From Escallonia rubra (Eukaryota; Streptophyta; Magnoliopsida; Escalloniales; Escalloniaceae), in contig JAVXUO010000086.1 in the NCBI GenBank assembly GCA_033065855.1, positions 372,001-436,000 on the forward strand: a stretch of 64,000 nucleotides of DNA, given 5' to 3'. The notes under the pieces are model-generated. The model ran no database searches. It had not been told where the DNA came from and worked only from the letters and a program-made list of their open reading frames with translations. The number at the start of each line of letters is the position of its first letter. Positions within the stretch are counted from its first letter, which is position 1. Shown here piece after piece: positions 46,501 through 51,900 of the stretch. Both the position numbers and the translations under genes were made by a program.

Positions 46501-48964
46501 CTAACCGCCTATAAGATAGGGAACTTATAAAAAATTCCCCATAATACCCTTTGTGAATTCTTCTTCTTCTCCTCTTTCATTCATCTACCAAGAAGCCATA
46601 AGCTTTCTTGCTTACTCCCACAATCACCGTTAAAATTGCTGGTTTGTCTTGGATTAAAAACAAATCTAAAATTGTGATGGCTTGGAATGTGCTCTTTCTT
46701 GTCCACGGCGTGGTTGGGGTTGCGTTGAGCCCGCCAATTTGAAGATCCTCCATCGATTTGAAGCAGCGGGATCGGCCAACCGAGCCGATTCCCATCGTCT
46801 GACATCTCAAAGTCACACCACTTTCAGATGCCACTGCTGTCTACGTTGCTTCTTTTCAACATCTCGCCACTTGCAACGTCGTAAATTCCACAGCCGTCCA
46901 CCATCTATAACTCCCCCATCACCACCACGCCAAATAACGGCAATCGCGGCCATCAACTGCCATCTATTCTCTTCTCATTTCCAGATATGGAATTCTCCTT
47001 TAATTTGAATTGAGTTTTAGGTTTTCTAATGATGTAATCAGATCCATTTTTGATGGATTTAAATTCCATTATTTATATACTTCATGTTTTATATCAATTT
47101 TCAAGTGCAAATCAGGCCCCTTTCTTGACTCAGTTACGGGGGGCTTAATGATTTAACTTTGAAGGGGGATGTTATGGTTGCTAGATTGGAAATTGAATAT
47201 TCAATGAGATGAGGCTAATCAAATAACCGAAAGATATGACAAAGGAAAAGAGACAAAGAAGGAAAGTGACGGAGTTGTAGGTCTGGAAAAAGTGCTAACC
47301 ACCCTTCTTTGGGGCGGTTAAGTGAAAACACATAAAAGAAATTACATCTCAGCCATCCGCGTTTTACATCTCAGCCATCCACGTCACCACGCGGATGGTT
47401 GAGATTCTCTTTTTTTAGACATTTCTCCTAACCATCCCAAAGAGGGTTATCATTTTTTGCAGAAGTGTTCCAGAAATGCCCTTCTCCACTTATGAATCTG
47501 AAGCAACAGCCAACCACTGTGGCCATAGCCGGCCATCCGTACACATCCACTCCTCCATCCATAAACACAACACCTTCACTGCTGCTGCTAACCTTGATAT
47601 GCCGTCACACACCACCTCCCTATTGCGGCTTCCGTCAACCTCAGTCGCTCACACACATAATGTCCTAACTGCATCTGTAACCCAACACCACTATAACTAC
47701 GGACCACCAGTGCCTCTCTTTCTTCAAAGGACCACTGTGCGAAAGTCCAACTACCATCGTCACCACCTAAATCCACCGTATACACGTCCTATAACCACTT
47801 TCCTACACCGCCCCAAAGAGATGCTGCGGTGGCATGGGGGAGTCAAGATAGCATTAAAATTTCCAGTTAAAGAGCTCAACATATAATAGAACTGAGGGAG
47901 AGACGATGCCGCTACTTCAGCCGCCGCCGCCACCGTGCAGATTTATCGGCACCGCCAATGCAGTCCGGATCTATCGCCACCGCTCGCTACCGCCACCGTT
48001 GGATGGACTCTCATTCTTTGTTTCCACTAAGACCCGGTCCTTACCTACTCTGTCGCAGCTACTATGAGATGCCTTTTTATGGGTTTTTCAAAGAGAGACC
48101 GGGAGAGACGAGACAAGAGAAAATCAAAGTTGATTTTGGAAAATTCACCAACAGCTTGAAAGTCAATCGCTTAGGCGAGAAATTTAAAAAAAAAAAGCTG
48201 ATCTCAACCGTCTAGTTAGAAACGTGCATGGTCGTATTACAGCCTGGAAAAAAGGGGCTAATCCATATCTAGTGTGGAGAAAATTCCTTTTTCCCAGCTA
48301 ATCTGAGACCGTCCACGTTGTGCAATGGATGCTCCAGATCATTGATTTTAGGAAATTACAATAGTATCCCTAAGGTTAGGGTGAAATTACAGTCAAGGAC
48401 AAGTTTCAAAATGTAATAGACTGTGACCACAAACTTTGAAAATGTAACAGTCGTGTCCATTTGTTATTAATCCGTTAAAAGGTGTGCTTTTTGCTAATGT
48501 CAATATTGCTCTTAAACAACAAATACATGTTTAAACTGTATAAATATTCATACCCTAATTTTCAAATTAGGGTTTGATTCTCTCTCTCTCTCTCTTCCCT
48601 TTCTCTCTTCTGCCTCCCCTGCCCCTTCTTTTCCCCCTCTTCTCAAACCATAATTTGCAAATTAGCATTCTCTCTCTCTCTCTCTCTCTCTCTTCTGCCT
48701 CCCCCGCCCCCTATCTCCCCTCTTTCAAAATTGGAGTTGGTGCTAGTTGCGGGAGGATGGCGGCGGTGCTTAGTCTTTAATGTTGGCGACAGATTTGGCG
48801 TGGGTTTGATGCCGGTTATGGGAGGATAGCATTTTTGGTGGGTTTCTGTGTTACGGGTGGTGCGTAATTAACGCGTTGGTGGGTGGATGATGGTGATGGG
48901 TGGTTGATGCGGTGGTGGGTGGATGACGTGGTGGTGGGGGATGATGACTGGAACTGAGACACGA

Positions 48965-48997
<33 letters not shown>

Positions 48998-51900
48998 TTT
49001 CCGCAATCGGCGAAAACCTGATGGAGCATGCGATGTGGAGGTAGAAGGCCCACGGGTCGTGAACTTCTTTTCCCGGAGAAGAAGCAATGACTGTATCTGG
49101 GGTGTATTCCCACGAAACGGATGTTGAAGTTTAAAAACACTGACCTAATCCTTTGAATCCTTCTTGCGGAATCGATAAATTATACGCCCACTGGTTGAAT
49201 CATAACGACTTACTTCAATTTTGACTCTATCCTTTGGCAATATCTGTATAAATCTACGTCGTATTTCTCCTGAAACACAACTTAGAATCATATCTTCATT
49301 ATCTAAACGAACACGGAACATACTTGGGAAGCTATTCAGGTAATTAAACCTTCATGAATCCATTTTTGTCGTTCGTTCCAGCTCAAGGGTTTCTTTTTTC
49401 TTCTCATCGGAGTTATTTCACAAAGACTTGCCGTGGTAAGGAAGAAGGGGGGAACAAGCACACTTGGAGAGCGCAGTACAACGGAGAGTTGTATGCTGCG
49501 TTCGGGAAGGATGAATTGCTCTCGAAAAGGAATCTATTGATGCTCTCCCAATTGGTTTGGGCCCTTCGTGATCTGACGGTGCCGAGTGGAAGGGCCATCG
49601 CTCAACGAATAGAAGTTACTCCAGAGATAACAGGCTGATCTTCTCCAAGAGCTCACATTCCCATCTATTCTAACGAAATTAAACCTATACAAGCATCCGA
49701 ACTCGCATTCTAATGTGGGCAATTGACAAGGCTGTTAGGTTTCTGTGTTGGTGGTGGTGGGTGGATAGTGGTGATGGGTGGTTGATGCGGTGGTGGGTTG
49801 ATGACGCGGTGGTTGGGGATGATGGTGATGGGCAGTTGACAAGGCTGTTGGGTTTCTGTGTTGGTGGTGGTGGGAAATTGACGCGATGGTGGGTGGATGG
49901 TGGTGATGGTTGGTTGATGTGGTGGTAGGTGCATGACGCTGTGGTGGGGGATGGTGGTGATAGGCAGTTGACGAGGCTGTTGAATGCTGACCTGGTGGTG
50001 GCTAGTGGAGGTTGGACGGGGTGGTGGGGGACGATGGTGATGGGTGGTTGACGAGGCTGGTGTGGTGGCTAGTGGTGGGCGTGGTGGTTATGGTTGGGGA
50101 TGCCGGTCGGTGCCCTGCTGGTGGTACTGCGGTGGTGGGTTCTTCAAAAGGAAGAGAGAAGAGGAGAGATGAAGGACTGGCATTTGAAAAAAATAACCTT
50201 CTAATTTAAGGGCAATAAAGTAATTTCCTTAAAACCATTAGGTATTTTAAGGTTCCATTTGGTCAAAAGGGACATCAGTGATATTTGTTCAAACTAATGG
50301 ATGCACGTGTAATTTCACCCTAACCTCAGGGACACTAGTGTAATTATCCCTTCGTTTTAAGAAAATATCATGCCTAAGAGTAGCGGTCAGAAAAGATCTG
50401 ATTTCTTCCCCCATTTCCGTAGCATATACTTCGTAGCTTTTCCCAGATTGTAAAGAATGATTGATAATCATCCATCTCCATTGAAAACAAAATCAACCAT
50501 ATCAATTACACCAAAATGAATCAACAAATTACACCAAAATCAATCTGCATCTCCATTTTCATCCATCAATCACATCATGAGCAAACCCATTTATCATTTG
50601 AATTACGCTAAAATTAATTTTCATCCATCACACTGAACGGCAAACCTATTTATTTAACATATCAATTACACCGGGATCAATTAATAGAAATCTAAGTTGA
50701 AACATTGGGCGAGGACAGATGCGGCGGAGGTGGCTTGGGCAGAGGACGGTGGTTGTGGTGGCTTGGGTGAATGCCAGATGCATTGGCGTCATCTGTGGGC
50801 AATGATGGTGTTGCCTGTGGCATCGGGCAGCGTCGATGCATGATGGTGGTGGTGGGTTTGGTTCGGTAGAGAGAGAATTGGTAGAGCCAATAGAGACGAG
50901 TACAGAAAAGTGAGGGGGGAGGGAGGGAGACAGAGAGAGAGAGAATCCGGTAATTAAAAGGAAGTTTTGGAAAAATTGCTAAGTGCCACTAATTTGTATA
51001 TAAAAAAGGATCTCAACCGTCCATTATGCAACGTGGACGGTTGAGATGCGCTGCGAAAATAAGGAAAGTTCCAAAGCTAGATGTGGATCAGCCCCGAAAT
51101 TTTCTCAGCGCAGATCTAGCCGTGCACGTCACCTCATGGACGGCCAAGATTGCCTTTATTTTTCCATCTCGCCTAACTGCCCAAAAAAAAGCTGGTCAGA
51201 ATAGATGATAATATGAGGTCAACTTTGCCCTTTGTCCAGAGTTTGTTGATTCTCTCTCTTTCTGCAGACTACCTCAGCGTTAGGGCTGCGGCACCACCAG
51301 CAAACAAGCTTGGGTACCCTATACGACCATCGCCTCCATTTCCACTCTCTCTTCCTTCCAAAACTTTCACAGCCATCACCAACATAGCCTAAATATAGGG
51401 AAATCCGAGATTTGCACTATCTCATTTGAGATGGCAAAGATTTCTGTTTATGATTCTTGGTAATGGATAGAAACCCAGTAAATTCAAAGCAAACGAGTTC
51501 TTCTTTCATCAGCCTTATATCCCTCCATTTTCAATCACCGGTCCAACACCCATAATAGCATATGCCTTTAAATTTCAATCATGAATCCATGGAGGTGAGT
51601 TCCGACGCCAAAGAACAATGAAAATTCAGCAACTTAGCACTTCAGGAAGGTGGTGGTGGCAGTGTGGTCAGTGGGGGTTCTAGTTGCAGGTGGGAGAGAG
51701 AAATCAAACTAAGGGCCGAGTGGAAAATTTTTGACAAATTGCTAACTGCTGTTCTTAGGGGCGGTTAGCATCTTAGCCGTCCATTGTACAACGTGGACGG
51801 CTGAGATGCGCTCGGAAAATAGGGGTTTCTCCAGAGCTGGATGTGGATCAGCTCTCGTGTTTATATATATATATTTATATATACACACACGTACACACAC

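Follow-up and report, generated by a model that had tools for sequence, protein, structure and literature searches.

A Mutator-like element in the nuclear genome of Escallonia rubra carries in its interior a mosaic of five organelle DNA pieces, which we interpret, with a probability of about 90%, as a small, complex insertion of organelle DNA, of the numin class, that was sealed by end joining into a break of the element. The window that we analyzed is a 64,000-nucleotide stretch (contig C9, GenBank JAVXUO010000086.1, positions 372001–436000) of a 566-Mb plant nuclear genome assembly. Within it, the mosaic spans positions 48947–49715, a length of 769 bp, and its five pieces follow one another with no gaps between them. 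The locus appears to be a new example of a repair scar of a known kind rather than a novel type of mobile element. The element and its insert comprise the following features, given in window coordinates.

48351–50350, plus strand: host element with terminal inverted repeats (TIRs), non-autonomous, Mutator-like (MULE-type), assigned from its inverted ends and the target duplications of its family
48873–48946, plus strand: left arm of the minisatellite, interrupted by the insert (Tandem Repeats Finder); in sister copy L059, the array runs on into the sequence from 49716 onward
48947–49102, plus strand: plastid 16S rRNA fragment (RF00177; cyanobacterial and nuclear plastid copies)
49103–49382, minus strand: plastid infA, with a broken frame, and the infA–rpl36 spacer (TIGR00008; nuclear copy L010)
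49383–49562, plus strand: 3′ part of the plastid trnI-GAU intron (RF00029 domain below its gathering score; nuclear copies); the left boundary may shift by a few bases
49563–49659, plus strand: plastid 23S rRNA fragment (cyanobacterial 23S; nuclear copy L019)
49660–49715, minus strand: mitochondrial DNA fragment (C3028:354966–355021)
49716–50140, plus strand: right arm of the minisatellite, back in phase (repeat finding; aligned to L059 from base 1616)

A preliminary description of this DNA had recognized four plastid pieces, namely 16S (plus), infA (minus), the trnI-GAU intron (plus) and 23S (plus), between the minisatellite arms of the element. All four are present, and Tandem Repeats Finder and repeat analysis do place minisatellite arms on both sides, but the series is longer than described, with a fifth, mitochondrial piece following the 23S fragment. 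Because 49660–49715 is taken as mitochondrial and 48947–49659 as plastid, we regard the block as a plastid–mitochondrion mosaic. In plastid genomes, infA and the rRNA operon are widely separated. The proposal that pieces from distant places in organelle genomes were brought together by several joining events holds, with the readable joins being blunt or sharing at most 1–2 bases.

Identity of the five pieces

The plastid pieces were mapped on nuclear plastid copies and on cyanobacterial sequence, which served as proxies for the plastid genome of the species. Plant plastid reference contigs were sought among viral contigs and genome contigs, with no match in any, and the plasmid and Escherichia coli records matched either the 16S part alone or the 16S and 23S parts together (best 20 of 549 plasmid and 5 of 5384 E. 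coli records). The 16S piece matches Rfam RF00177 with 71 bits (E 4.5e-18), over boundaries wider than the piece itself (48886–49173). It is 82% identical to cyanobacterial 16S (L001) across 48947–49102, 93% identical to nuclear plastid copy L017 over 48947–49067 and 98% identical to copy L026 over 49050–49102. The infA piece, on the minus strand, gives a match to NCBIfam TIGR00008 within 49103–49382 (E 1.9e-22) and is 93% identical to nuclear copy L010 (C2300) across 49104–49381; its reading frame in the mosaic is broken and frameshifted. The gene adjoining infA in L010 we take, reading it by eye, to be rpl36.

The intron piece contains a group II intron domain (RF00029) at 49467–49541 that scores 35.6 bits (E 1.3e-4), short of the gathering score of 40. 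Eight nuclear copies (L013–L016, L024, L025, L027 and L029) partly match the stretch 49385–49562, and in copies such as L015, the matching stretch continues into tRNA-exon-like sequence and trnA. We presume that the intron is that of trnI-GAU, a name that is in part assumed and in part taken from nuclear copies that read on like plastid trnI. The 23S piece is 84% identical to cyanobacterial 23S over 49563–49658 (E 2e-25, one locus) and 92% identical to nuclear copy L019.

The fifth piece, 49660–49715, shares 53 of 56 bases with C3028:354966–355021 (E 2.9e-16, one genome), and its counterpart there has no flanking 23S. C3028 is a contig of 795 kb with a stop-free COX1 frame of 535 amino acids (300622–301962, E 2.2e-160) and an open reading frame (ORF) resembling YMF19/atp8 that lies ~4 kb from the match to the fifth piece. 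Over 320001–370000, divided into five 10-kb stretches, every stretch has a mean G+C of 0.43–0.45, and 3-kb samples at 200, 500 and 700 kb have G+C values of 0.39–0.51 per 500 bp. We take C3028 to be mitochondrial DNA, given the intact COX1, the YMF19 frame and a G+C of 0.43–0.45. A coding origin for the fifth piece was considered and set aside: its four reading frames were without a match among solved structures, and the genome search placed the piece in C3028. The YMF19/atp8-like ORF itself (L033 1264 onward, C3028 ~351264) is atp8-like in residues 3–33 and then runs on for ~190 residues to which no Pfam family matches at the cut-off used; it looks like a chimeric ORF of the mitochondrion.

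Joins and the empty site

The joins were read by comparing the flanking bases in nuclear copies. No bases are shared at the join between the element and 16S or at that between 23S and the mitochondrial piece, and the 16S/infA join would likewise share none, provided that T49103 arose by deamination of an infA C. The mitochondrial/element join shares 0–2 bases in our reading of the alignments. At the trnI/23S join, the preliminary description had seen a common TTGG, which is not there: since the three 23S copies read AAGTCGG at that point ((A/C)AAGTCGG or GAAGTCGG ahead of the join), the microhomology amounts to at most 1 bp (C). To judge from these alignments, the pattern of the joins is the picture of end joining.

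Sister copies of the element supply the empty site. In L059 (C1558), bases 1458–1611 align to 48795–48946 of the window and bases 1616–2303 to 49716–50365. The element parts of the window are 83–84% identical to L059 with gaps excluded (520/619 and 125/151). When the window flanks are joined and aligned to this copy, a 4-bp gap, GTGA, falls at the insertion point; the alignment also has a 19-bp gap to the right of this point and small ones to its left. The best reading, which is not certain, is that ~4 bp of the element were lost at insertion. A second sister copy, L055 (C2599), matches 48346–48946 and 49749–50189 of the window with its adjoining segments 2967–2364 and 2368–1915, with no organelle DNA between them. 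A long sister copy, L073 (C2365), matches both arms, and BLAST finds no mosaic match in it.

The host element and its family

The host is an old, degraded member of its TIR-element family. Its TIR arms, 48354–48391 and 50308–50345, are complementary at 35 of 38 bases and can be extended to 48351 and 50349 with one gap. With the ends placed at 48351 and 50350, the flanks TTGATTTTA and TTCGTTTTA agree at 7/9 positions. A single random pair of 9-mers from the window reaches this level in 0.2% of cases. The flank duplication of the host copy is suggestive only, because the best of nine registers reaches 7/9 in 285 of 20000 random pairs. Competing registers exist, among them one with 7/8 matches shifted into the element end, which was preferred in the family flank analysis, and 10-bp registers with 7 matches; the register used by related copies gives fewer than 6/9 in the host copy.

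Genome searches with the left and right arms returned 1379 and 1553 first-look candidates, respectively, with 40 scored for each. Our survey of flanking repeats covered 23 distinct elements (3 in the window and 20 elsewhere, duplicate loci being counted once), in 3 of which (L057, L042 and L052) one end is not properly located. A perfect 9-bp target duplication in the same register is found in 9/23 elements, while L063 has a perfect duplication of 10 bp. The repeat of L054 is perfect but in a shifted register within a T run, and that of L048 agrees at 8/9. None of the nearest relatives of the host copy, L055, L056, L058 and L059, has a perfect target duplication. The 9-bp-type flanks described earlier are thus borne out by perfect duplications in the family, but for the host copy, the figure is only 7/9. 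Judged by its TIRs and 9-bp target duplications, the family fits a Mutator-like assignment, and the placement of the mosaic inside a non-autonomous element of this type, as first described, agrees with these features.

Two further elements with similar inverted ends lie in the window. The first (11361–13418), in reverse orientation, contains a PDX1/SNZ-like fragment at ~11640–12070 (Pfam SOR_SNZ), a Pack-MULE-like capture, and its flanks have no clear target duplication. The second (62071–63443) is bounded by a perfect 9-bp target duplication, TAAATTCAA, and holds an HMG-CoA reductase fragment that is broken and lies in minus orientation at ~62570–63070 (Pfam HMG-CoA_red, E 1.4e-20). Elsewhere in the window, a 532-amino-acid open frame on the minus strand (38647–40245) is, as we take it by eye, hAT-type transposase-like.

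Search for other copies of the mosaic

We searched the genome with the mosaic, scoring 40 of 61 candidates, and with the segment 49500–49760, scoring all 14 candidates, which gave 15 matches. In the first search, from which the single occurrence of the 16S/infA and infA/trnI joins is judged, none of the scored matches apart from the window brings two pieces together. A match on C1041 extends 4 bases beyond the 16S end and one on C943 a single base beyond the intron end (the shared C), overruns that we take as alignment ends or noise. In the second search, no match besides the window extends over any of three joins, namely trnI/23S, 23S/mitochondrial and mitochondrial/element. With no scored match other than the window spanning a join, nothing points to a second mosaic copy. 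A BLAST search of the mosaic (E 1e-3) against 33 element-family loci, representing 23 distinct places, also gave no match, and so the mosaic is not shared among the element copies examined. The suggestion that the element traffics the mosaic by transposition therefore finds no counterpart in the genome searches or the family loci, and sister copy L059 is empty; we have rejected spread by transposition on these grounds.

The same observations bear on a Pack-MULE-like capture, in which the mosaic would have been gained via template switching during element-linked gap repair and could be transposed onward. Ordinary gene pieces (PDX1/SNZ-like and HMG-CoA reductase) are present in the two further elements of the window whose ends are similar, and the insert lies in the interior of the host element, both of which would suit such an origin. 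A capture that is copied along with its element is, however, not what we observe, as no second mosaic copy was found in the genome or family searches and an empty sister copy is present. Moreover, five unlinked organelle pieces with blunt or 1–2-bp joins fit numin ligation better than the copying of nuclear templates. We consider Pack-MULE-like capture quite unlikely on this evidence, although it overlaps with numin ligation in that both are break repair inside an element.

A mosaic that was first assembled within the mitochondrial genome and then reached the nucleus in a single mitochondrial fragment is very improbable. The last piece is mitochondrial, and C3028 does carry a 48-bp plastid 16S-like stretch. 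Nevertheless, in the mosaic search, C3028 matches only this stretch and the fifth piece, which lie ~26 kb apart; none of the matches listed on C3028 is to infA, trnI or 23S, and the fifth piece there has no 23S adjoining it. Contiguity of the pieces in a mitochondrial genome, which the preliminary description named as an observation that would refute its reading, is not found on C3028 among the scored matches.

Divergence and age

The pieces differ from their proxies by ~5–8% overall, a figure that includes changes of the nuclear proxies' own. The 16S piece has 8/121 differences from L017, 1/53 from L026 and 8/96 from L018; the infA piece has 17/277 from L010; the intron piece has 7/142 from L014 and 19/169 from L015; the 23S piece has 8/96 from L019; and the mitochondrial piece has 3/55 from C3028. 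Organelle reads are abundant in plant libraries, which could be counted in favor of an assembly chimera of plastid reads, yet present-day organelle reads would be identical to their sources, whereas these pieces have diverged from the plastid and mitochondrial proxies, infA is frameshifted, the mitochondrial piece differs from organelle contig C3028 itself, and the element is in phase on both sides of the mosaic, leaving a chimera barely credible. The mosaic is real in the assembly, old and nuclear.

Discussion

Numins are characterized by at least one plastid and at least one mitochondrial fragment at one nuclear place and by blunt or short-microhomology joins. Here, there are four plastid fragments and one mitochondrial fragment, with 0–2 shared bases at the readable joins. 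The fragments of a numin should also be non-adjacent in their organelle genomes, and as far as the scored matches go, the pieces do not adjoin one another on C3028. We propose that a non-autonomous Mutator-like element already present in the nuclear genome suffered a double-strand break within its internal minisatellite. Four plastid fragments and one mitochondrial fragment would then have been linked in a row and used to close the break through non-homologous end joining, a pathway that we infer because the joins are blunt or share 1–2 bases. About 4 bp of element sequence would have been lost during repair, and the insert would afterwards have decayed through ordinary nuclear mutation. Nothing indicates that the mosaic has been moved by the element since its insertion.

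Several points weigh against this interpretation. The mitochondrial piece is short (~56 bp), the infA/trnI join can be placed only to within a few bases, and the nuclear plastid copies used as proxies are mutated themselves. The insertion point falls within a tandem array for which alternative partial arm alignments exist, and it is because the array permits these, together with the 19-bp gap, that the 4-bp loss is only the best reading. A source molecule already in mosaic order, though improbable, may have existed, as C3028 opens with 3 kb of N and is perhaps a partial mitochondrial genome. Finally, an excess of C-to-T and G-to-A changes is expected for methylated organelle insertions, according to the part of PMC7037861 consulted. 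Such changes make up 6/8 of the differences in 16S (against L017) and 5/8 in 23S, but the excess is missing from infA (7/17), the intron (3/7) and the mitochondrial piece (1/3), so the deamination bias is not uniform.

The closest known counterparts are the numins and complex nupts (nuclear plastid insertions) described by Portugez, Martin and Hazkani-Covo in 2018 (PMC6215612). Like our mosaic, these lie, in the sections of that paper drawn on here, in the nuclear DNA of plants and set plastid and mitochondrial fragments from distant places side by side in differing orientations, the joins being blunt or sharing a few bp. Numins make up 2–10% of the organelle insertions in the nine plant genomes treated in those sections, blunt or microhomology signatures occur at 1,128 of 3,206 mitochondria–plastid joins, and end joining is held to be a key mechanism (PMC6215612). 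Against the same sections, we see no difference in mechanism; the pieces here are very short, and the empty site comes from a sister transposon copy.

Pack-MULEs and Pack-TIRs resemble our element in holding foreign DNA between TIR ends, and the portion of PMC8277862 consulted describes single-copy internal capture in animal Pack-TIRs, for which gap filling within an inserted element is the model. They differ in that the filler here is organellar rather than a nuclear gene and in that transposition of the filled element is not seen. With non-autonomous MULEs in general, the element shares TIRs and, in related copies, 9-bp target duplications, but the host copy differs in its degraded target duplication (7/9) and its organelle insert. 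Among the titles and opening lines of abstracts that we surveyed, none describes plastid DNA inserted into a Mutator-like element or a Pack-MULE, or nested inside a transposon.

The locus has little significance alone, and its use is methodical. A host that belongs to a repeat family provides the empty site from a sister copy, so that an old organelle insertion can be read at its two outer joins, a reading that usually requires a closely similar second genome. In the part of the numin study available to us, terminal joins were left unanalyzed for lack of similar genomes (PMC6215612). It is also conceivable, if unlikely, that Mutator-like elements of this sort are fragile at their internal minisatellites and acquire foreign DNA there time and again, pieces of nuclear genes in some copies and ligated organelle scraps in the host copy, such that the families would act as traps that record end-joining events. 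If element arrays were true preferred sites of organelle insertion, they would indicate where plant genomes break.

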